NCBI GenBank assembly: GCA_900554265.1
Contig: USGZ01000063.1
Coordinates: 1 to 8,159 of the forward strand
Direction: 5' to 3'
Source: an uncultured Porphyromonadaceae bacterium
Lineage (GTDB): Bacteria > Bacteroidota > Bacteroidia > Bacteroidales > Muribaculaceae
DNA: 8,159 bases
The notes under the pieces are model-generated. The model saw only the letters and a list, made by a program, of their open reading frames with translations, was not told the origin of the DNA and searched no databases. Below are positions 1 to 8,159 of this stretch, piece by piece. The translations under genes were made by a program, and so were the position numbers. Every line of letters begins with the position of its first letter. Within the stretch, counting starts at the first letter, position 1.

Positions 1-767
1 AGGTCGTTGTGAGCCGCGAGAATGCCGCCGGAGGAGTAGCCGCTACCGGTCTTGTGGGCGATGCTGACGCCGGCGATGCTGTCCAGGGGTGCGGCGATGC
101 GGTCGACGCCCGTGGTGCAGCGGCCGAGAGTGCTGCGCAGCCAGGGGTCCTCCTTGCTAAGAGAGTCGGTGAACAGCCGGTTCATGAGCATGGCGGCGGA
201 GAGAGGCGAGGTGTGGTTGCGCGCGGCGAGCGAGTGGTCGGCGAACATCTGCGCCTCCGATACGGCTATGCCGAAGCCTTCGCGGGGAATGATGGCGGCG
301 ATGGCGCTGTCGGTCTGTGCGGGCGACTGCAGGTGCGCGAAAAGATAGTCGCTGGCGTTGTTGTCGCTCAGGGTCAGCGCGTAGTCAAGCAGCCGGCGCA
401 GGGAGATGGCGATGCTGTCGCCGGTAAAGTCGGCGAGCATCGGCGACCAGGTGTCGGGGTTGAGTTCCGCCCGCGGGATGGTTACTGTCGAATCCAGCGA
501 GCCGCCCTCGCTGCCGAGCTTGCGGCTGAGGGCTATGGCCTGATGTAGCTTGACGACGCTCATGAGCGGGTAGGCGTCGTCGTTACCGGCGGTTAGGGTG
601 TCGCCGTCGGTAATCAGGGCCACGCCGATTTGCCCCGGATATTCCGCGGCGATGCTCTCGATTTCGGCCTCCAGGCCCTCCAGAGGTCGCTCCTGAGTAG
701 ATGTCCGCGCGCAGGCCGCCGAGAGCGCAAGCCCCGCGCAGAGCAAAAAGTATGCGATGGATTTCAT
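1..767 (-). CDS. Class A beta-lactamase, CfxA-like (3' end outside window)
   Basis: This encodes an exported serine beta-lactamase that hydrolyses beta-lactams in the periplasm. The visible 255 codons carry every class A signature: S70-V-V-K73 (nucleophile and general base), S134-D-N136, a Glu at 171 in SEAQM (the Glu166 equivalent), and K239-T-G-S-G. Wording such as TSPL.AAMLMNRLFT, TGVDRIAAPL and AHKTGSGY matches the CfxA branch as I remember it; this was not searched. CfxA is about 320 residues, so roughly 60 C-terminal residues lie beyond base 1. The N-terminus has one Lys, a hydrophobic stretch (4-18) and Cys19. It could be a lipoprotein with a poor lipobox (SAAC) or be cut after Ala20. 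Codon use is as GC-rich as the neighbours and no mobile element is visible, which suggests a resident gene. It is divergent from the thioredoxin operon. Confidence 0.93.
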   Translation of the reverse strand, partial: MKSIAYFLLCAGLALSAACARTSTQERPLEGLEAEIESIAAEYPGQIGVALITDGDTLTAGNDDAYPLMSVVKLHQAIALSRKLGSEGGSLDSTVTIPRAELNPDTWSPMLADFTGDSIAISLRRLLDYALTLSDNNASDYLFAHLQSPAQTDSAIAAIIPREGFGIAVSEAQMFADHSLAARNHTSPLSAAMLMNRLFTDSLSKEDPWLRSTLGRCTTGVDRIAAPLDSIAGVSIAHKTGSGYSSGGILAAHND

Positions 768-788
768 TATGCGTATTTGTTTGAGACA

Positions 789-820
789 CAAAATTAGTAA
801 TTCCGCGGCAGACGGGCAAG
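789..820 (-). promoter_or_regulatory. Bacteroidota-type promoter of the beta-lactamase gene
   Basis: On the minus strand TAATTTTG (796-789) fits the Bacteroidota -7 consensus TAnnTTTG exactly. A CTTG (820-817) lies 20 bases upstream, the usual distance for the -33 element. Transcription would start near 782, giving a leader of about 15 bases before the ATG at 767. The location is right and both boxes are present, but the -33 box is only a partial match. Confidence 0.6.
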
Positions 821-837
821 GGTGCGGAGAGGAGGCA

Positions 838-880
838 GGGAGAGGCGTGCCGGTCTGAACTTTGGTCGCGGGAGAGGCGT
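838..880. repeat. 11-base direct repeat in the divergent intergenic region
   Basis: GGGAGAGGCGT occurs at 838-848 and again at 870-880, identical over 11 bases and offset by 32 bases, about three helical turns. The flanking bases differ. The pair lies between the start of the beta-lactamase gene and the start of the thioredoxin gene, just upstream of the beta-lactamase promoter. It could be a regulator binding site, but purine-rich repeats of this size can arise by chance in GC-rich DNA. Confidence 0.4.
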
Positions 881-920
881 TGATAAGATAATCGAATCTA
901 AAACTGCTTCTACTACTAAA

Positions 921-1220
921 ATGGCAAACTTCAACACACTTATCAACAGCGCGCCCGCCGTGCTTGTCGAATTCTACGCTCCCTGGTGCCCCCACTGCCA
1001 GGAAATGATGCCGATAGTCGATGATATCCGCTCGCTTCTGGGCGAATCGATGCCTATATATCAGATAGATATCGATCAGAACGGAGAGCTGGCCGAAGAG
1101 GAAGGCGTGACGGGCACTCCGACCTTCATAGTCTATAAGAACGGCCATCCGGCCTGGCGACACACCGGTGAGATGGACGGCAACGCCCTGCTTCAGAAGC
1201 TCCAGCAATTCGCCGGATAA
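921..1220 (+). CDS. Thioredoxin-fold protein with CPHC active site
   Basis: A 99-residue single-domain thioredoxin. The active site is A20-P-W-C23-P-H-C26, with the cis-proline loop G65-T-P67-T-F and the strand FIVYKNG after it. Ordinary thioredoxins have CGPC and act as reductants. CPHC is the dithiol of DsbA, whose histidine makes the pair strongly oxidising, so this protein may be an oxidase, isomerase or electron carrier. It has no signal peptide; the in-frame extension back to 822 is rich in Arg and Gly and is not one either, so it is probably cytoplasmic. I chose the ATG at 921 because the fold begins there and an A-rich stretch precedes it, as is usual in Bacteroidota. The VKOR gene follows after 19 bases, so the two are probably cotranscribed. 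A near-match -7 box (GAACTTTG, 857-864) may serve the operon. Confidence 0.9.
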   Translation: MANFNTLINSAPAVLVEFYAPWCPHCQEMMPIVDDIRSLLGESMPIYQIDIDQNGELAEEEGVTGTPTFIVYKNGHPAWRHTGEMDGNALLQKLQQFAG

Positions 1221-1239
1221 ACGATTGCAAGACAAAGAG

Positions 1240-2244
1240 ATGGAGCCAAGGTCAGTGTTCACTGAATTCGTGCGCCGGCTTGAGGTGCCCTGCACGGCGG
1301 ACTATTCGGACAGTCAGTTCGCCTCGATGCCCTTCTGCTCGCTGTTCGGTTTCAGCCGCCTGCTGCAGAAATACGGAATTCCGAACGATACCTACCGCCT
1401 GGCCGACAAGGCTCAGGCCGAGTCGCTGCCGGTGCCCTACCTGGCGCAGTACGGCGATACCTTCGTTGTCGTCACGGACTCTACGCCCGGCCAACTCGAG
1501 CTTGCGGATGGCGAACGGACGGCCACGCTTACCCGCTCCGCCTTCGACCGCAAGTTTACCGGCGTGGTCCTGCTGGCTTATCCCGAGGCTTCATCGCGCG
1601 AGCCAGACTACGAGCGCCATCGCTTTATCGATGCCGCCTGCGCCGCAAAGCGCTGGATTCTGGCAGCCTGCGTCGTATTCATGGCGGTGTACTTCATCGT
1701 AGTGCACGGACTCTGGCGCTCGCCTGCGCTGATGGCCGTGCTGGCTATCGACAGCCTCGGCCTCTACGCCTCATATCTGCTGATACTCAAAAGCGTTGGC
1801 ATAGAGACACAGGCCGGCGACAGTATCTGCGGAATTATCGAGCGCACGGGGTGCCATTCGGTTCTGAACACCGCCGGCGCCAAGTTCTTCGGAATCTTCG
1901 GATGGAGCGAAGTGGGCTTCGGCTACTTCTGTGTGAGCATCGCCTGCCTGCTGCTGTTCCCGCAGTATGTGGGTTACCTGGCCCTGGCCAATGCCTGCGC
2001 GGCGCTGTTCTCCTTCTGGAGCATATGGTACCAGAAGTACCGCGCCAAGGCCTGGTGTACGCTCTGCCTTACGGTCCAGGGTTGCCTCTGGGGCGCACTG
2101 ATAGCCTACCTGCTCGGCGGCGCGTTCGCGCACATCGGCCATATCGGCATCGAGGCACTGGTTCTGCTGGCAGCCTATGTCGGCGCCGTGCTGGCGGCTC
2201 AGGCCGTGGCGGACTCTCTGGAGCATTACGTCAAAAACAAGTAA
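1240..2244 (+). CDS. C39-like domain fused to vitamin K epoxide reductase (VKOR) membrane protein
   Basis: A 334-residue integral membrane protein. Residues about 15-115 resemble a C39 peptidase domain: C33 sits 13 residues before Y45-G46 as the catalytic Cys does, and the end (SAFDRKFTGVVLL) resembles the C39 C-terminal strand. The histidine expected before FVVV (75-78) is replaced by Thr74, so protease activity is unlikely. Hydrophobic segments lie near 139-156, 164-186, 224-242, 245-264, 279-297 and 303-322. The VKOR core has all four redox cysteines: C197 and C205 in the loop, and W-C273-T-L-C276 before the fourth core helix. VKORs pass electrons from thiols to quinone and form disulfides with a thioredoxin-fold partner; the CPHC protein directly upstream is the obvious candidate. 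C39-VKOR fusions occur in Bacteroidota. There is no fused thioredoxin domain. The start at 1240 follows AAAGAG; the longer frame overlaps the thioredoxin. Confidence 0.88.
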   Translation: MEPRSVFTEFVRRLEVPCTADYSDSQFASMPFCSLFGFSRLLQKYGIPNDTYRLADKAQAESLPVPYLAQYGDTFVVVTDSTPGQLELADGERTATLTRSAFDRKFTGVVLLAYPEASSREPDYERHRFIDAACAAKRWILAACVVFMAVYFIVVHGLWRSPALMAVLAIDSLGLYASYLLILKSVGIETQAGDSICGIIERTGCHSVLNTAGAKFFGIFGWSEVGFGYFCVSIACLLLFPQYVGYLALANACAALFSFWSIWYQKYRAKAWCTLCLTVQGCLWGALIAYLLGGAFAHIGHIGIEALVLLAAYVGAVLAAQAVADSLEHYVKNK

Positions 2245-2250
2245 GCGACT

Positions 2251-2406
2251 ATGAAAAGCATTGCCAGGATAGACCCGGCCAAGTTTCCGGGCATCGCCAA
2301 GCTGACGCCTCTGGAGATGAACAACCTCCATTTCAAGCGCCGCGGCCATCACTCGCCGCTGCCTCAGCCGAAGCAGAGTTCCTCCGCCTCGGCGGGGAAG
2401 AAGTGA
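2251..2406 (+). CDS. Small leader-like peptide, 51 residues, possible modified-peptide precursor
   Basis: This 51-codon frame starts six bases after the VKOR stop, so it is probably translated as the third gene of the operon. The peptide is basic (11 Lys or Arg) and cysteine-free, with no signal peptide and no membrane segment. Residues 18-26 (LTPLEMNNL) resemble the leader core of Bacteroidales double-glycine peptides, in which E-M-N-x-L is followed by x-G-G; here the next residues are H27-F28-K-R-R-G, so the Gly-Gly is missing. The tail (34-51) is rich in Pro, Gln, Ser and Lys and looks disordered. The last 43 bases run antisense into pyrC. It could be a ribosomally made natural-product precursor, a small regulatory partner of the C39-like domain, or a conserved peptide of unknown role. 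I do not recognise it with certainty. Confidence 0.6.
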   Translation: MKSIARIDPAKFPGIAKLTPLEMNNLHFKRRGHHSPLPQPKQSSSASAGKK

Positions 2407-3617
2407 GATTTCCCGTCGTCGGTCCGGGCGTAGGCGAGGCGGCCGTTGAGCCGCGTTTCGACCACGCGCCAGGAGGCCGTGAGTCCGGCGAAAGGCGTCC
2501 AGCCGCAGGTGCTGAGGACGTCGGCGTCGCCTATGGCGTAAGGCTCGCATTTCTCTACTGTGCAGCAGCTTCCTTCGAGGGGGTTGCTGCCGTTTTTTTC
2601 CTTACCGTCCGGACGCAGGGTGCCGGAAATATGGAATATGAGCCGGGGATTGACGCCCATTTTCCCGGCTATGACGTCGGCCGGGAAAAGGCCGAGTAGC
2701 AGAGGCACGGCGAACTGAATCGACGGTGCGCCGGACGCGGCCGTAAGTGCGCCGCCCTGCTTCTCGGAGAGCAGATGCGGGGCATGGTCGGTGCCGATGG
2801 TGTCGATACGGCCGTCGAGAACCGCCGCTGTCAGTTCTGCGCAGTCGGCCTCGGTCTTGATGGCCGGGTTGACCTTCTGGCGCGAGGTACGGCGCGAGGG
2901 AACCGAGAGCTCCGGGATTAGATAGAGCGGCGTGGTTTCCGCCGTGACGAACTTTCCCGACACGGGGCCCGGGCTGAGGAACTCGCGAACCTCGTCGGCG
3001 GTGCTGACGTGGGCGATATGCAGGTGCGTGCCGAAGCGGTGGGCCAGCTCGACGGCGCGGGCGGTGGCGCGCAGGCAGGCCTCGCGGCTGCGGATGATAT
3101 GGTGCTCGGATACGGGTACGGCCTCGCGGGAGCCGCCGTGGCGCGCGATGGCCTCGGCTGTGGCGGCGGCGATGAGGGCGTCGTCCTCGGCGTGGACCAT
3201 TACGGGCAGGCTCATGTCCGCGCACATGCGGAAGATTTCCTCCAGTACGGGCTGCTCGGGTGCGGCCATGGCGCCGGTGGTGGTGCCGAGGAAGAGCTTG
3301 ATGCCCGGAATGCGGTGGCGCGGAACGGTGCGCAGCAGTTCGGGCGTCTCCGCGGAGGCGGCGGGGAAGAAACCGTAGTTGGCCTGGGCGGTGGCGGCGC
3401 CGAGGGCGTATTTGGCCGTCAGGCCGGTGGCGGATACCGTCGGCGGCTTGGTGTTGGGCATGTCGAGGAAGCCCGTGATGCCTCCGGCCAGGGCGGCGCG
3501 GCTCTCGGAGTATATCGTGGCCTTGTGGGTCAGTCCGGGCTCGCGGAAGTGGACGTGTGTGTCCGTGAGCGCCGGCAGGACTATGCGCGTGCCGGCGGCA
3601 ACTTCGGCGTCCATCAT
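2364..3617 (-). CDS. pyrC: Dihydroorotase, N-terminally short
   Basis: This amidohydrolase cyclises N-carbamoyl-aspartate to dihydroorotate in pyrimidine synthesis, in the cytoplasm. Metal and substrate motifs are intact: H21-V-H23-F-R-E-P-G, K107 in GIKLFLG, H142 in VHAED, H203 in HIAHVST, and G-T-D277-H-A-P-H. The start is the ATG at 3617, whose ATGA overlaps the stop of the glycosyltransferase gene. A longer frame to 3665 would only read through that gene. The 417-residue protein begins about 20 residues before the HxH motif, whereas relatives have about 45 more residues that form part of the small beta domain. The matching C-terminal region is also altered: a polar insert (PDGKEKNGSN, 337-346) and a GSCC segment stand where relatives have GYxADLVLV. 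The CGW-PF motif afterwards is normal, so this is not a frameshift. It overlaps the convergent peptide gene by 43 bases. Confidence 0.9.
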   Translation of the reverse strand: MMDAEVAAGTRIVLPALTDTHVHFREPGLTHKATIYSESRAALAGGITGFLDMPNTKPPTVSATGLTAKYALGAATAQANYGFFPAASAETPELLRTVPRHRIPGIKLFLGTTTGAMAAPEQPVLEEIFRMCADMSLPVMVHAEDDALIAAATAEAIARHGGSREAVPVSEHHIIRSREACLRATARAVELAHRFGTHLHIAHVSTADEVREFLSPGPVSGKFVTAETTPLYLIPELSVPSRRTSRQKVNPAIKTEADCAELTAAVLDGRIDTIGTDHAPHLLSEKQGGALTAASGAPSIQFAVPLLLGLFPADVIAGKMGVNPRLIFHISGTLRPDGKEKNGSNPLEGSCCTVEKCEPYAIGDADVLSTCGWTPFAGLTASWRVVETRLNGRLAYARTDDGKSHFFPAEAEELCFG

Positions 3618-4381
3618 TCCTTTATTTTGGAATAGTCCGGGTACTTCTTGAAGAAGCTGTTCCACTTCAGGCGTATTACGCCGAGCACGGCCTCGCCGAA
3701 GATTCCGGAACTCATCTTGCTGGTACCTAATACGCGGTTGACGAAGATAATCGGCAGCTCGACTATCCTGAATCCGTACTTGTAGGCGGTGAACTTCATC
3801 TCGACCTGGAATGCATAGCCCTTGAACTTGATTTTGTCCAGAGGCAGGGCCTTGAGGACGCGGCGGCGGTAGCCGACGAATCCGGCGGTGGTGTCGTGGA
3901 CGGGCAGCCCGGTGATGAATCGCACGTACTTGGAGGCGAAGTAGCTCATCAGCACGCGACCCATGGGCCAGTTGACCACGTTGACGCCGGTCACGTAGCG
4001 CGAGCCTACCACCACGTCGGCGCCCTTTTCGAGCACCTCGGCGCGCATGGCCGTCAGGTCCTTGGGATTATGGCTGAAATCGGCGTCCATCTCGCATATG
4101 AACTCGTAGGAATGCTCCAGGGCGTAGTTGAACCCGGCGATGTAGGCCGTGCCGAGTCCGAGTTTGCCGCGGCGTTCGAGCAGGTGGATGCGTCCGGGAT
4201 ACTCGGCGATTTTGCCGCGTACGATGTCGGCGGTGCCGTCGGGCGAATTGTCGTCGATGATGAGGACGTCGAACTTCGGTTCCAGGGCCATCACGGCGTC
4301 GATGATGGCGGCGGCGTTCTCGCACTCGTTGTACGTCGGGATTATTACCAGGGAGTCGCTTTCTTTGGTGTTGGAGTCCAT
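3614..4381 (-). CDS. GT2 glycosyltransferase, polyprenol-phosphate mannose/glucose synthase type
   Basis: A 255-residue family 2 glycosyltransferase that probably moves a sugar from a nucleotide donor to polyprenyl phosphate at the inner face of the cytoplasmic membrane, supplying later glycan or lipid glycosylation. The GT-A fold is clear: LVIIPTYNE (11-19), DDNSPDGT (43-50), GLGTAYIAGF (75-84), the metal-binding D99-A-D101-F-S-H-N-P, GSRY (126-129) and DTTAGF (163-168). The length and the lack of C-terminal membrane helices match the single-domain Dpm1 type rather than the ArnC/GtrB type with two helices. The donor sugar cannot be read from the sequence. Its stop shares ATGA with the pyrC start, so the two are translationally coupled. 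The YeiH-type gene ends 25 bases upstream. Confidence 0.9.
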   Translation of the reverse strand: MDSNTKESDSLVIIPTYNECENAAAIIDAVMALEPKFDVLIIDDNSPDGTADIVRGKIAEYPGRIHLLERRGKLGLGTAYIAGFNYALEHSYEFICEMDADFSHNPKDLTAMRAEVLEKGADVVVGSRYVTGVNVVNWPMGRVLMSYFASKYVRFITGLPVHDTTAGFVGYRRRVLKALPLDKIKFKGYAFQVEMKFTAYKYGFRIVELPIIFVNRVLGTSKMSSGIFGEAVLGVIRLKWNSFFKKYPDYSKIKE

Positions 4382-4406
4382 AGCTATGCGGATGGAAAAG
4401 GAAGAA

Positions 4407-5435
4407 TCAGAGTAATACGGGCGCCAGGTACTTGGCCATCGCCCAGCCGCCGGCCATGAGCCATACGAAGAGCAGTGCGGCCAGGATGAAAGGCTTGGGA
4501 CCGGCCTTCCTGAACTTGTCGAAACTGGTCTCGGCGCCCAGGGCGGCCATGGCCATCGTCAGCAGGAAGGTGTCGAAGCTGTTGATGCCGTCGACAAGCG
4601 CGACGGGAAGGAGATTGAAGCTGTTGAAGCCGATAACGGCAAGGAACATCAGCGCGAACCAGGGTATGGAGATATTCACGCCGGCAGTGCCGCCGCTGCG
4701 CCGGGCCTTCATGGCTACCCAGTAGGCGAGGATGAGCAGGACGGGTACAAGAAGCATCACGCGGATCATCTTGACGATGATGGCCACCGGGGCGATGGTC
4801 TCGCCCATGGCGTTGCCGGCGCCGACGGCGTGGGCAACCTCATGCAGGGTCGAGCCGGCGAAGATGCCCATCTGCTCGGGGCTCAGCCCGAGGATGCCGG
4901 AGCGGTAGGCGATAGGATAGATGAACATGGCTATGGTGCCGAAAATCACTACCGTAGCCACGGCGATGGCAGTCTTGTAGGGCTTGGTCTGGATTGCGGA
5001 CTCGGCGCCCAGGACGGCGGCGGCGCCGCAGATGCCCGAGCCGATGGAGGTCAGCAGCGCCGTCTCGGAGTCCATCTTAAGCAGCTTTCCCAGAAGAATG
5101 CCGCCGAGGATGGTGACGGTCACCACTATGGTGTCGATTACCAGACCCGGGGTACCGACGGCGATAACGTCCTGGAAAGTCAGGCGGAAGCCGTAGAGGA
5201 TGATGCCCAGGCGCAGAATTTTCTTGGAGCAGAACTGGATGCCGGGGACCCATGTCTCGGGGAGGTTGTTGCGGAGGCTGTTGGCATAGATCATACCGAG
5301 GACTATGCCTATGATCATCGGGCTGATGGAGAGCTCCCGGAATATCTCGGCCTGGCCGATATAAAAGGCGGCGCAGGCGAAAAGCGCTATGAGAAGCACG
5401 CCGTGGAGCATTGAGCTTCGTTTTTCTGTCAGCAT
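4407..5435 (-). CDS. YeiH/UPF0324 family membrane transporter
   Basis: A 342-residue polytopic membrane protein of about ten hydrophobic segments, belonging to the YeiH (UPF0324) family, often labelled putative sulfate exporter. The substrate is not established. Family motifs seen are SPMIIGIVLGMIYAN (38-52), LRLGIILYGFRLTFQDV (74-90), GSGICGAAAVLGAE (132-145) and GSTLHEVAHAVGAGNAMGE (194-212). These two polar re-entrant-looking stretches in the middle are typical of the family. The length is usual. The start at 5435 leaves ten bases after the DUF2461 stop, so it is probably in the same transcript. Nothing nearby (no sulfur-metabolism gene, no LysR regulator) tells what it moves. Confidence 0.9.
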   Translation of the reverse strand: MLTEKRSSMLHGVLLIALFACAAFYIGQAEIFRELSISPMIIGIVLGMIYANSLRNNLPETWVPGIQFCSKKILRLGIILYGFRLTFQDVIAVGTPGLVIDTIVVTVTILGGILLGKLLKMDSETALLTSIGSGICGAAAVLGAESAIQTKPYKTAIAVATVVIFGTIAMFIYPIAYRSGILGLSPEQMGIFAGSTLHEVAHAVGAGNAMGETIAPVAIIVKMIRVMLLVPVLLILAYWVAMKARRSGGTAGVNISIPWFALMFLAVIGFNSFNLLPVALVDGINSFDTFLLTMAMAALGAETSFDKFRKAGPKPFILAALLFVWLMAGGWAMAKYLAPVLL

Positions 5436-5445
5436 GGATTTGCAG

Positions 5446-6108
5446 TTATTCGTCGATTGAATAGTTTATGAAGTCGTTGAGAGGCTTGAGCAGAAGCGCC
5501 AGGTCGGCAACTTCGCGCGGCCACTCGGGATTGTCGAAGAATGAGCGGTCGAAGTAGTGGCACTTGCCTATCTCCTTGAGGCGCAGCAGGTCGATGTCCG
5601 GGTGGTTGCGGTCGTAGCCTTTGGGTGCGGTCTTGAGCTGAGGACCGTACCAGCCGGGGAATTCGCGGGCCACCCGCGGCTCGTCGATAATGCCGCGGAA
5701 CTCGTCGATGTTGTCGACGATGGCCTTGCGCACTTTTTTGAGCACCTTGCTCTCGGGCTGCCACAGGCCGCTGTAGACCGCGCACTCCTGCGCACCCAGG
5801 TGCAGGTACCAGCAGGCGCGGTCGCAGTGGCGCCCCGTAGGGGAGATGAGTGCGGAGAAATAGGTCTTGTAGGGCGTCTTGTCCGGGGAGAAGCGCGTGT
5901 CGCGGTATATGCGGTAGGCGCAGGCATCGGCCCCTACGTAGCGCAGGGCCGGCTCCCCCTCGGCCATCAGGGATATCACGGTCTGCAGGTCCGCCATCCA
6001 AAGGGCGCGCAGGCGGTCGTATTCGGCTTTGTTGGCCTGGAACCACGGCCGGTTGTTGTTGGCAGCCAGGCGGTCCAGATAGCCGAAGAGTTCAGGCATG
6101 AAGTTCAT
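5446..6108 (-). CDS. DUF2461 family protein
   Basis: A 220-residue soluble protein of the DUF2461 (TIGR02453) family, whose biochemical role is unknown. Recognisable family sequence is the N-terminal L-x-x-N-N-x-R-x-W-F (residues 14-23), then RIYRDTRFSPDKTPYKT (66-82), the Y-L-H-L segment near 100, and KGYDRNHPDIDLLRLK near 163-178. I chose the ATG at 6108 over one at 6123 because it forms an ATGA overlap with the upstream stop and has GGAGG seven bases before it. No signal peptide or membrane segment is present, so it is probably cytoplasmic. The YeiH-type gene follows after ten bases. Confidence 0.88.
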   Translation of the reverse strand: MNFMPELFGYLDRLAANNNRPWFQANKAEYDRLRALWMADLQTVISLMAEGEPALRYVGADACAYRIYRDTRFSPDKTPYKTYFSALISPTGRHCDRACWYLHLGAQECAVYSGLWQPESKVLKKVRKAIVDNIDEFRGIIDEPRVAREFPGWYGPQLKTAPKGYDRNHPDIDLLRLKEIGKCHYFDRSFFDNPEWPREVADLALLLKPLNDFINYSIDE

Positions 6109-6473
6109 TTGAGGTCCTCCCATTCGGCGTCGCTTACCTGCTCCTCGCGGGTGTAGTCGGTGCCGGAGGTGCTATACTGTTGTTTTACGTCTATTTCCGT
6201 GAATTTGACGTATTCCCCTACGTCGTCGGGTATCTTCTTGCGCCGGCGCGGGCGTTGGGGCTGCGTCCCGAAGCCGAAGGCGCTCATGAAATCAGAGAAG
6301 AAATCGGTCGTAGCGCCTCGGTTGTCCTTGCGGCCGGCGCCGCTGGCGGAGGCGGCCTGCCGGGCGCGGTCCTGGAACTTGCGCATCTGGCGGCGTACAA
6401 GCCATTGCAGCAGGTAGGGGGCCAGCAGGTAGATTATAAATACTATGAGGAGAAAAGCGAGTATATAAGCCAT
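6105..6473 (-). CDS. DUF4834 family small membrane protein
   Basis: A 122-residue protein with one N-terminal membrane helix (about residues 3-25), followed by Arg and Lys (WLVRRQMRKF), which predicts the tail on the cytoplasmic side. The middle is a low-complexity Ala, Gly, Ser and Arg linker. The C-terminal part (79-95, KKIPDDVGEYVKFTEID) is the characteristic end of Bacteroidota DUF4834 proteins. The function is unknown. In Bacteroidales such a gene, as I recall, often follows psd and pssA, as here, which supports the assignment and suggests a link to the envelope. It overlaps the next gene by four bases (ATGA). The 94-base gap on its upstream side is the largest inside this gene row. Confidence 0.82.
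   Translation of the reverse strand: MAYILAFLLIVFIIYLLAPYLLQWLVRRQMRKFQDRARQAASASGAGRKDNRGATTDFFSDFMSAFGFGTQPQRPRRRKKIPDDVGEYVKFTEIDVKQQYSTSGTDYTREEQVSDAEWEDLK
6116..6120 (-). promoter_or_regulatory. Strong Shine-Dalgarno site for the DUF2461 gene
   Basis: GGAGG on the minus strand stands seven bases before the ATG at 6108, inside the end of the upstream DUF4834 gene. It decides the start against the in-frame ATG at 6123, which lies upstream of it. It is notable because most other starts in this window have no clear Shine-Dalgarno sequence. Confidence 0.6.
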
Positions 6474-6527
6474 TGTACGTTCGTTAGTTAAGAGCGTGCC
6501 TGGAAGCTGTGCGGGAGAGCGCGCGCA

Positions 6528-6545
6528 GCGCCGCCGCGGCGGCGC
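6528..6545. repeat. 18-base perfect GC palindrome between pssA and the DUF4834 gene
   Basis: GCGCCGCCG followed by CGGCGGCGC is a perfect inverted repeat with no spacer, lying 22 bases after the pssA stop in the 94-base gap. RNA could form a 7-base all-GC stem with a 4-base loop. No run of U follows on the minus strand, so it is not a classical intrinsic terminator. It may attenuate transcription or protect the end of the psd-pssA message. Confidence 0.4.
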
Positions 6546-6567
6546 CGGCAGCGGGAACTTCAGACTC

Positions 6568-7269
6568 TCAGAGGCGCCTGCGCTTCATCAGGGAGAGGAA
6601 GAAGTAGAACACGATGGTCCACATCAGGCCTGCGAGGCCGTTGAAGACCACGAAGAGCACCGCGGCCAGTATCAGGGCGTAGCGGGCGAAATTCTCCGCC
6701 AGACCCCAGGTCTTGAATTTGAGGGAGAACATCCGGAACCGCGCTGTCATGGCCAGGGCGACGAGCACCGCAAGGACGTCGACGGCAGGCCATCCGGGGT
6801 AGCCGTATTGCTGTACCCATCCGTAGAAACCTATCCAGAATATTGCGTTGGCCGGAATCGGCAGCCCGCGGAAGCTGACGCTCTGTTCGCCGTCGGTGTT
6901 GAATGTCGCCAGGCGGATTGCGCCGCAGACCGGAATTATCAGCACCGGGAGCACGGCGCCCGGGGGCGTGCCGGCGGCGAGCATCATATTGGCCAGCAGA
7001 GCCGCCGGAGCGACACCGAAGCTGACCATGTCCGACAGCGAGTCCAGGTCGCCGCCCAGGGGCGAGAAGGCATGGAGCAGCCGTGCGGCGAATCCGTCGA
7101 GAAAGTCGAAGACGGCAGCGGCGCCCATTGCCAGCGCGGCCCATTCTCCGCCGCTGAGGGCTCCGAACTGTTCGTTGAGATGGAAGGCCATGTATATGGC
7201 CACGCAACCCGAAATCAGATTCAGGCACGTAATCGAATTCGGTATACAGGAAATTATTTTCTTCAGCAT
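6568..7269 (-). CDS. pssA: CDP-diacylglycerol-serine O-phosphatidyltransferase
   Basis: This enzyme makes phosphatidylserine from CDP-diacylglycerol and serine in the cytoplasmic membrane, the substrate for the decarboxylase encoded just upstream. The CDP-alcohol phosphatidyltransferase motif is complete and correctly spaced: D55-x-x-D58-G59-x-x-A62-R63, eight residues, G72, three residues, D76, three residues, D80. These aspartates bind the two metal ions. The opening IPNSITCLNLISG is typical of the integral-membrane bacterial PssA type, and several hydrophobic helices follow. The 233-residue length is normal for Bacteroidota. Only two bases separate it from the psd stop, so the two steps of phosphatidylethanolamine synthesis are made together. 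Confidence 0.95.
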   Translation of the reverse strand: MLKKIISCIPNSITCLNLISGCVAIYMAFHLNEQFGALSGGEWAALAMGAAAVFDFLDGFAARLLHAFSPLGGDLDSLSDMVSFGVAPAALLANMMLAAGTPPGAVLPVLIIPVCGAIRLATFNTDGEQSVSFRGLPIPANAIFWIGFYGWVQQYGYPGWPAVDVLAVLVALAMTARFRMFSLKFKTWGLAENFARYALILAAVLFVVFNGLAGLMWTIVFYFFLSLMKRRRL

Positions 7270-7271
7270 TT

Positions 7272-7973
7272 TCAGTCCTTGCCGCCGGGATGGAGACGGC
7301 CGATTTCGGTTATGCCGCCGGTGACGGTGTCGCCGATTTTGACATTGACGGTTGTGCCCAGGGGCAGGTAGAGGTCGACGCGCGAGCCGAACTTAATGAA
7401 TCCCATATGGTCCTCGATGGAGGCTTCGTCGCCCGGTTTGGCGTAGGTGACGATGCGGCGTGCCATGGCGCCGGCAATCTGGCGCATCAGAACCAGCTGG
7501 CCTGCCGCTGTCCGGATGACTACGGTGCTGCGCTCGTTCTCGGTGCTGGACTTGGGAAGGTAGGCGGCCATGAAGCGGCCGGGATGGTATGCCGTGAAGA
7601 CAACTTCGCCGTCGACGGGAAACCAGTTGGCGTGTACGTTGAGGATGCTCATGAACACCGATACCTGGATGCAGCGGCACTTGAGGTACTCTGGCTCGTA
7701 GGTTTCTTCAAGTGCCACAACCTTGCCGTCGGCCGAAGCGACGACGACGTTGTCCGGATTGCCGCGGAAGACGCGGCGCGGCGAGCGGAAGAAATTGACC
7801 ACAAGAAGGTAGAACACGCCGCAGAGCGCCGTCGATACAATCGCCCAGGCAAGCGGCCGTACCCAGATCCATAAAGGCAGGTTCACCACCAGCAGGATTG
7901 CCAGCAGCGTCCAGAGGATATTGGCGCCTTCATGATGGATTTTTACTCTCATGGTTTTTCCGGGATTATCCAT
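7272..7973 (-). CDS. psd: Phosphatidylserine decarboxylase proenzyme
   Basis: This pyruvoyl enzyme turns phosphatidylserine into phosphatidylethanolamine at the membrane. It is the short form (233 residues), with a hydrophobic N-terminal region (17-60). Motifs are SADGKVVALEE (80-90, with D82), FMSILNVHANWFPVDG (107-122, with H114), RQIAGAMARRIVTYA (164-178) and H189-M-G-F-I-K-F-G196-S197-R. Self-cleavage between G196 and S197 yields the beta chain and the pyruvoyl alpha chain. This wording matches Bacteroides enzymes as I remember them. The start is either 7973 or the ATG at 7952 (residue 8), which would give MRVKIHHEG, close to relatives; neither has a strong Shine-Dalgarno site. It heads the long minus-strand gene row, with a promoter-like box about 50 bases upstream. 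Confidence 0.95.
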   Translation of the reverse strand: MDNPGKTMRVKIHHEGANILWTLLAILLVVNLPLWIWVRPLAWAIVSTALCGVFYLLVVNFFRSPRRVFRGNPDNVVVASADGKVVALEETYEPEYLKCRCIQVSVFMSILNVHANWFPVDGEVVFTAYHPGRFMAAYLPKSSTENERSTVVIRTAAGQLVLMRQIAGAMARRIVTYAKPGDEASIEDHMGFIKFGSRVDLYLPLGTTVNVKIGDTVTGGITEIGRLHPGGKD

Positions 7974-8019
7974 GCCGGCGGATTGGCCGCAGGCTTGCGG
8001 ATAATGTTATATGTAAACG

Positions 8020-8027
8020 CAAAGGTA
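8020..8027 (-). promoter_or_regulatory. Promoter -7 box upstream of psd
   Basis: TACCTTTG on the minus strand fits the Bacteroidota consensus TAnnTTTG exactly and lies in the only AT-rich spacer in front of psd. I find no TTG at the expected -33 distance, so only half of the promoter is supported. Transcription would begin near 8013, about 40 bases before the start at 7973. Confidence 0.5.
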
Positions 8028-8076
8028 GAAAAAATATTTGAACTTGCGGTTCTTTGTAGCTTATTTTTTATAAAAT

Positions 8077-8102
8077 TCACGTTTATAGGCCCCGGAACGT
8101 GA
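8077..8102 (-). terminator. Possible intrinsic terminator of the gene entering from the right edge
   Basis: TCACGTT (8077-8083) and AACGTGA (8096-8102) form a 7-base stem around a 12-base loop that contains GGCC. Read on the minus strand, the hairpin begins about 13 bases after a TGA at 8118-8116 and is followed by ATTTTATAAAAAAT, an imperfect U-tract. The position is right for a terminator, but the stem is modest. The 142-base region 7974-8115 otherwise holds only the psd promoter box. Confidence 0.4.
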
Positions 8103-8115
8103 CGGTATCCCGGAC

Positions 8116-8159
8116 TCAGGCCTGCACGAGTTTGCGGAAGCCGGCAGGCACGGGCTGGG
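8116..8159 (-). CDS. Possible C-terminal end of an upstream gene (partial)
   Basis: A minus-strand frame enters from the right edge and ends at TGA (8118-8116). The 13 visible codons read QPVPAGFRKLVQA. It is too short to recognise. A gene end here is supported by the change from GC-rich to AT-rich sequence right after the stop and by the hairpin that follows. In Bacteroides I recall dnaE standing upstream of psd, but nothing in these residues proves that. Confidence 0.3.
   Translation of the reverse strand, partial: QPVPAGFRKLVQA

Follow-up and report, generated by a model that had tools for sequence, protein, structure and literature searches.

Contig USGZ01000063.1 (assembly GCA_900554265.1) of an uncultured Muribaculaceae bacterium, analysed here from position 1 to 8,159 (the window, 8,159 nucleotides in all), carries three plus-strand frames in a row with intergenic gaps of 19 and 6 bases: a thioredoxin gene, a gene that fuses a C39-like domain to a VKOR, and a gene for a short leader-like peptide (Table 1). 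The coordinates agree with a preliminary description of the same DNA, which had proposed that the three genes form a dedicated module. Pfam recognises the first two products, with scores of 83 bits for Thioredoxin (cut-off 23.5), 45.7 for VKOR (PF07884; cut-off 27.5) and 23.9 for Peptidase_C39 (PF03412; cut-off 22), and neither Pfam nor NCBIfam holds a family that matches the window peptide. In the PDB, a search with the single sequence gave chance matches alone, whereas a profile search did find structures.

Table 1. Features of the thioredoxin, C39-like/VKOR and peptide locus (positions within the window; aa, amino acids)
Feature	Position	Strand	Details
Thioredoxin gene	921..1220	+	99 aa, WCPHC active site; no signal peptide by reading; PF00085, 83 bits
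C39-like/VKOR fusion gene	1240..2244	+	334 aa; Pfam C39 and VKOR above cut-off; AlphaFold pLDDT 94
C39-like domain	1240..1608	+	Fusion residues 1-123; cysteine not conserved; His absent from the column that aligns with the catalytic His of PCAT1
Extra transmembrane helix before the VKOR bundle	1609..1704	+	Fusion residues 124-155; helix in the AlphaFold model
VKOR four-helix part	1720..2139	+	Fusion residues 161-300
VKOR loop cysteines C197 and C205	1828..1854	+	Invariant in 91/91 short forms and 26/26 long forms
VKOR CxxC, C273 and C276	2056..2067	+	Invariant in 91/91 short and 26/26 long forms; preceded by the positive stretch K266-R268-K270
Leader-like peptide gene	2251..2406	+	51 aa; kept downstream of VKOR; purifying selection
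Leader-like motif LTPLEMNNLHF	2302..2334	+	Peptide residues 18-28; L-12, E-8, M-7, L-4; F at the place of the first G

A scan of one genome per species returned 227 relatives of the fusion, those with names being mostly Muribaculaceae, and the best 80, picked by closeness to the fusion, served as the locus set. The isolate Paramuribaculum intestinale DSM 100749 (L054) has the whole triad. A peptide profile, seeded with 61 downstream peptides found by motif and then recovering a further 18 loci, matches beside the VKOR gene in 79 of these 80 loci; the sole miss (L080), kept as such, lies on a contig that ends 79 bases past the VKOR gene. The copies were found by scanning the frames beside VKOR genes, a whole-protein database search with the peptide, which needs shared exact words, having given two. 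Directly upstream of the VKOR gene, a thioredoxin gene is present in 78 of the 80 loci, and the two loci without one (L011, L072) have a similar CPHC thioredoxin elsewhere in the genome. All 79 adjacent thioredoxins, including that of the window, carry WCxHC (CPHC in 69), and by reading their starts are too short for a signal peptide.

In order to offset the selection of these loci by closeness, 198 Muribaculaceae genomes were drawn evenly. This family sample gave 105 VKOR matches, which were sorted into the short C39-like/VKOR gene and a long form that includes its own thioredoxin part, five fragments being counted as neither. The short gene occurs in 86 copies in 84 of the 198 genomes, with the peptide within 150 bases downstream in 81 copies and a thioredoxin (E-value 1e-23 or better) within 600 bases upstream in 78. 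In addition, a count of neighbouring frames of at least 75 aa over the 80 loci and the window, in flanks of up to 6 kb (many contigs being shorter), shows that, once VKOR, thioredoxin and an antisense frame over the thioredoxin are set aside, no family recurs in more than 10 of 81 loci, and the most recurrent one (10 of 81) stands at scattered positions. Taken together, these results bear out the dedicated module, and the circumstances that the preliminary description had named beforehand as speaking against it are absent, the three genes being usually found together. The peptide is a real gene, occurring there far beyond chance, and the triad is almost certainly a functional unit.

The association is not strict, and several observations weigh against it. 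The peptide is absent beside five of the 86 short VKOR genes (those of G478, G386, G239 and G399, and a low-scoring second copy in G380); all five also have no close thioredoxin adjacent, and by reading the first four retain the four VKOR cysteines. In genome G475 (L171:3545-4041) the thioredoxin is followed directly by the peptide frame, with VKOR missing between them, and 23 of the 198 genomes carry a similar thioredoxin without a short VKOR, so that the thioredoxin tie falls short of being strict. The thioredoxin alone is missing, at the threshold used, in G355, G389 and G458. Conversely, only two of 83 peptide matches lie away from a short VKOR, one after an apparent decayed VKOR end and the other directly after a thioredoxin, and in an order-wide sample the peptide was found in only 2 of 295 genomes, including the one on which the draw was centred.

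Three further observations concern particular loci. A divergent group of short VKORs (L166, L167, L168) keeps the four cysteines and is adjoined by neither thioredoxin nor peptide, L167 also having no Pfam C39 match. In L073 (6934-7101) the peptide lies on the opposite strand and overlaps the VKOR end, which is either a real inversion or an assembly fault; it was counted as a match. Eight loci (L012, L026, L039, L040, L047, L056, L063 and L080) bear titles of Lachnoclostridium, Pseudoflavonifractor, Staphylococcus, Lachnospiraceae, Clostridium, Desulfovibrio or Clostridiales, resemble the Muribaculaceae loci and are probably mislabelled metagenome bins.

The third gene is under purifying selection. 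The ratio of nonsynonymous to synonymous differences (pN/pS, uncorrected) is 0.16 when pooled over 12 close pairs and ranges from 0.06 to 0.37, pairs that are not all independent, six of them lying among four related loci, and that leave out L015 and L046; such low values indicate a translated peptide under constraint. The core consensus is A-x-[KR]-L-[TS]-P-x-E-[ML]-N-x-[LI]-[HR]-[FC], and it follows the spacing of double-glycine (GG) leaders, L(-12)xxxE(-8)L/M(-7)xxI/L(-4), with L/M at -12 in 80 of 80 peptides, E/D/Q at -8 in 79, M/L at -7 in 78 and L/I at -4 in 65. In this regard, PMC6363468 gives L(-12)xxxE(-8)L(-7) as the rule for leaders read by the C39 domain of ComA, and places residues -4, -7 and -12 in the groove of LahT150. 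A profile built from 13 GG leaders of the order (four beside long fusions and nine from a TIGR04149 search; L015, which contains a run of N, was left out) scores best in the register proposed here for 75 of 79 peptides, and 58 of the 79 beat 95% of their composition-matched shuffles, 41 of them beating 99%. An alignment of leader windows by hhalign agreed in register and was given no weight, both windows having been cut around the motif beforehand.

What follows the leader sets the peptide apart from a bacteriocin precursor. At position -2 the 80 peptides have F (58), C (10), L (6), M (2), I (2), A (1) or Y (1) and never G, so that a GG, GA or GS cleavage site is missing, and there is no cysteine-bearing core of the bacteroidetocin kind, 65 peptides having no cysteine, 14 having one, and one (L015, read into a run of N) having two. 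The other option in the preliminary description, action of the redox pair on a peptide, is unlikely in the sense of oxidation of this peptide itself, given these cysteine counts. Judged from its sequence, the peptide is a leader that lacks both a cleavage site and a cysteine cargo, and its resemblance to leaders is firm; TIGR04149, run on 73 peptides, matched one (E-value 0.13), and the window peptide belongs to no curated family. Conservation extends beyond the groove motif, with A at -15 in 73 of 80 peptides and T or S next in all 80, and the tail varies in both sequence and length (9 to 50 residues after -1, 22 in the window). The peptide has no signal sequence by reading, and its start overlaps the VKOR stop in 35 of the 79 same-strand loci. 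A second motif of the form [LIV][TS]Pxx[LIVM] lies downstream of the first in 40 of 79 peptides (e.g., L013, L052 and L075), 28 of them fuller and all of these 17 residues on; the tail bears a weak resemblance to the first motif (13 of 73 at p <0.05, with short tails and L015 excluded). The window peptide does not carry this LTPxxL-type motif, which may elsewhere provide a second contact.

These features bear on two alternative roles for the peptide. It could be the precursor of a signalling or antibacterial product that is modified by the module and leaves the cell without GG cleavage, as its fit to precursor leaders and the precursor-like peptides beside the long fusions would allow; yet the absence of G at -2 in all 80 peptides, the presence of no more than one cysteine in 79 of them, strong purifying selection rather than a variable core, and flanks of up to 6 kb in which no exporter or modifying enzyme recurs make this role decidedly unlikely. 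Alternatively, the peptide could act in trans as the leader of a separate, leaderless client that the oxidase then modifies. The variable tails would suit such a function, but no client gene recurs nearby, and we regard it as very unlikely.

The N-terminal part of the fusion adopts the C39 fold, as judged by structure and profile comparisons with LahT and PCAT1. Within residues 1-123, Cys occurs at no position in more than 13 of the 91 short forms, and the column aligned to the His of PCAT1 that we take to be catalytic holds His in none of the 91. In the absence of a conserved Cys and of a His at that column, the domain is best described as C39-like and not as a peptidase, and it is probably inactive as such in the triad; a C39 fold without peptidase activity has precedent. 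Against this, H18 is conserved in 76 of the 91 C39-like domains, the window having Cys there, and among the 26 long forms His stands at the catalytic column in two and Cys within the first 20 residues in seven, so that in the long forms a loss of activity is not proved.

Whether the peptide occupies the groove of this domain was addressed by structure prediction and by covariation. In the window the peptide gene is in frame with the VKOR gene, and the two were folded by AlphaFold as a single chain, with Gln in place of the stop and an alignment of loci whose peptide is likewise in frame; a first joint alignment, in which the peptides landed inside the VKOR sequence, was dropped. Residues 14-23 of the peptide reach a mean confidence (pLDDT) of 92, compared with 54 and 61 in the two blocks before them (331-350) and 77 and 74 in those after. 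In the modelled peptide, residues 16-17 form a strand and 20-24 a helix, residue 27 is bridged, and the motif lies in and next to the high-confidence segment; domain residue 34 is bridged in the joint model and not in the VKOR protein alone. The leader bound to LahT150 forms a helix upstream and an extended stretch beside the active site (PMC6363468), and the matching form of the modelled peptide suggests that it would sit in a substrate-like manner.

Other results weigh against this placement. A linker of three residues joins the partners in the joint model, the peptide is present in only 14 of 53 alignment rows, and the model was made with the true peptide only. Covariation over 76 loci (those with X, or without the peptide, being left out) gave no signal for the C39-like domain, to which 27 of the 80 top leader-column pairs point while it holds 116 of the 294 variable columns. 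The highest-ranking pair couples N(-6) with residue 224, in the membrane part, the distance correlations are equal for the C39-like and membrane parts (partial 0.42 each), and S/T34 and H/R/K(-3), which occur together in 67 of 76 loci, share one change on the tree (p 0.28). The earlier proposal that the C39-like domain binds the peptide consequently gains predicted support from the leader spacing, the fold and the AlphaFold model, and none from covariation; on balance, we consider it likely that the peptide binds the C39-like groove.

The remaining part of the fusion is a VKOR by its two loop cysteines, its CxxC and its four-helix fold. In front of the bundle, profile alignment to PCAT1 extends through the extra helix (124-155), and structural matches to VKOR begin at 155-161. 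One additional helix before the bundle would turn it round, so that the cysteines face the cytosol. In line with this orientation, K or R is found before the CxxC at residues 266, 268 and 270 with frequencies of 1.0, 0.98 and 0.82, and K+R counts per segment are 2.9-4.4 on the predicted inner side against 0.05-0.65 on the outer side, with the same pattern in the long forms (the comparison of short with long forms, for charges, cysteines and the His column, covered 40 of the 91 short forms and the 26 long forms). Some caution comes from the inner segments being longer (17, 39 and 13 residues) than the outer ones (10, 5 and 11), from the 2.77 D+E that the 39-residue inner segment also carries, from a neutral C-terminal tail (1.80 K+R, 1.88 D+E) and from the coverage of the counts, which take in C39-VKOR proteins alone and have canonical VKORs outside the comparison. 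Charges and helix count together make it very likely that all four VKOR cysteines are cytosolic.

In most descriptions, VKORs act on exported proteins, and an ordinary outward-facing Dsb-like module, with the VKOR cysteines and the C39-like domain in the periplasm and a thioredoxin exported by an unseen route, would conform to this role. Views of VKOR on the endoplasmic reticulum-lumenal and the periplasmic side appear in PMC4555120. Such an arrangement is, however, opposed by the positive-inside charges and the additional first helix that short and long forms share, by the lack of a signal sequence in the thioredoxin and the peptide by reading, and by the GG leaders beside the long forms, which belong to cytosolic precursors; we hold it to be highly improbable.

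We propose, with slightly less than even confidence, that the conserved module is a complex that faces the cytosol and forms disulfides, with the peptide as a resident docking subunit in a probably inactive C39-like groove. The C39-like domain would lie in the cytosol, and electrons would pass from the signal-less thioredoxin to the VKOR cysteines and on to quinone. The peptide would sit in the groove in the manner of a leader that cannot be cut, and there dock the now separate thioredoxin or a client. That the peptide is a resident subunit, and not a substrate or a released product, is an evenly balanced judgement, and the docking role is the least certain step of the proposal. The main rival, in our view unlikely, casts the peptide as a plug or regulator that would occupy the groove and hold the cytosolic oxidase in the off (or on) state until the peptide is removed by a signal. 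It shares the groove-binding evidence of leader spacing, register and AlphaFold model, the overlap of peptide start and VKOR stop in 35 of 79 loci would couple the supply of both, and disulfide formation in the cytosol would presumably need tight control; on the other hand, conservation past the groove motif (A at -15 and the T/S that follows) suggests further contacts, and no sensor domain is visible. The docking proposal goes past the preliminary description in the lack of a conserved C39 Cys, in the missing double glycine, in the probable cytosolic orientation of the enzyme and in its long relatives, which accompany cysteine-rich GG peptides.

These relatives are C39-VKOR-thioredoxin fusions. 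The order sample contains 12 of them, 516-549 aa long, in eight genomes (L086, L088-L094, L106-L109), and by eye all 12 have within 300 bases one or more GG-leader peptides with four to eight cysteines. The family sample adds 14 more, 10 of which were judged to adjoin a cysteine-rich small gene; a mechanical count finds such genes beside 23 of the 26 long fusions, at least one of these being spurious. All 26 possess the four VKOR cysteines and a CxxC in the C-terminal part. When nine of the 26 proteins were run against Pfam, five passed the C39, VKOR and thioredoxin cut-offs, L154 and L157 fell just below for C39 and L163 just below for thioredoxin, and L090 gave VKOR and thioredoxin only. The triad peptide is on none of the 14 long-fusion contigs of the family sample, accompanying instead the unfused thioredoxin. 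Of seven plasmid matches, two were examined, and both have a peptidase-domain ATP-binding cassette (ABC) exporter beside the fusion. On a Parabacteroides distasonis plasmid (L194:5983-12861) a 539-aa fusion is followed by a 59-aa leader/cysteine peptide, DUF4369, a LanC-like protein, glycosyltransferases and the exporter, and on a Hymenobacter plasmid by a TlpA-like protein, the exporter and HlyD. LanC-like and glycosyltransferase-like frames also seem, by reading, to adjoin the Muribaculaceae long fusions L157, L158, L162 and L164.

The long class is a probable leader-guided disulfide installer for exported peptides of Bacteroidota, in which the fusion would oxidise GG-leader peptides rich in cysteine ahead of their export. 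The triad may be a domesticated descendant of this class. In the proposed direction of change, the descendant in Muribaculaceae would have shed the fused thioredoxin, the exporter, the glycines and the cargo, and would have kept the leader as a permanent part. The complete scenario, in which a cargo-free bacteriocin leader became a permanent subunit in a dead C39 domain and docks an oxidising thioredoxin onto an inward-facing VKOR, with the long form installing disulfides in peptide toxins, is possible and more tentative than the cytosolic complex taken by itself. A literature search, most subscription papers being outside it, returned no description of a leader-guided disulfide system of long fusions and no paper that joins VKOR with peptidase C39, and its query for VKOR, thioredoxin and bacteriocin gave unrelated work.

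Among the known systems close to these, the bacteroidetocin regions also belong to Bacteroidota: PMC6671954 describes GG-leader cysteine peptides with a thiol oxidoreductase co-encoded in most regions, which its authors propose to make the disulfides, and presents Bacteroides as being without general disulfide machinery. The main text of that paper never mentions VKOR, epoxide or thioredoxin, and the triad differs from these regions in having no exporter, no GG and no cysteine cargo. Bacteroidales clusters for ribosomally synthesised and post-translationally modified peptides (RiPPs) pair leader peptides with C39-peptidase exporters (PMC10352776), and the main text of that survey is without VKOR, epoxide, thioredoxin and disulfide. 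Unlike the C39 domains of PCAT/AMS transporters (PCAT1, LahT150, ComA), the triad domain has neither a conserved Cys nor the aligned His and is fused to VKOR instead of an ABC transporter. A C39-type domain that recruits and tethers an unfolded substrate is described in PMC6363468; compared with non-peptidase C39 folds, the triad domain is attached to an oxidase and paired with its own leader-like peptide. With the Synechococcus VKOR-thioredoxin fusion (4nv5, 3kp9) the triad shares the four-helix bundle, two loop cysteines, the CxxC and a thioredoxin partner, and it differs in the extra helix, the C39-like domain in front, the predicted inverted orientation and the separate thioredoxin. As to orientation, a 2017 report by Hibender is said, by its title, to place the VKOR of Aeropyrum pernix in two compartments, a precedent for either membrane side. 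That enzyme is archaeal, and we know of no C39-like domain or peptide associated with it.

Regarding the surroundings of the triad, the preliminary description had noted no exporter in the window, and by reading we likewise saw none among the window frames, nor a peptidase-domain ABC exporter adjoining the triad. Promoter and terminator scans of the locus gave results no better than shuffles. At its 3' end (2364-2406) the peptide gene runs into the end of a convergent frame (2364-3665) that, by reading, resembles a dihydroorotase gene.

Muribaculaceae rank among the most abundant mouse-gut bacteria, and the third gene of the triad, though it stands beside 81 of 86 short VKOR copies in this family, matches no curated family. 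If the proposed reading is true, leader recognition, known from export and peptide modification, would have been reused to assemble an enzyme complex, and these anaerobes would make disulfides purposely in the cytosol, where such bonds are seldom formed on purpose. The long-form relatives, in turn, offer a testable answer to how Bacteroidota may oxidise cysteine-rich peptides before export.

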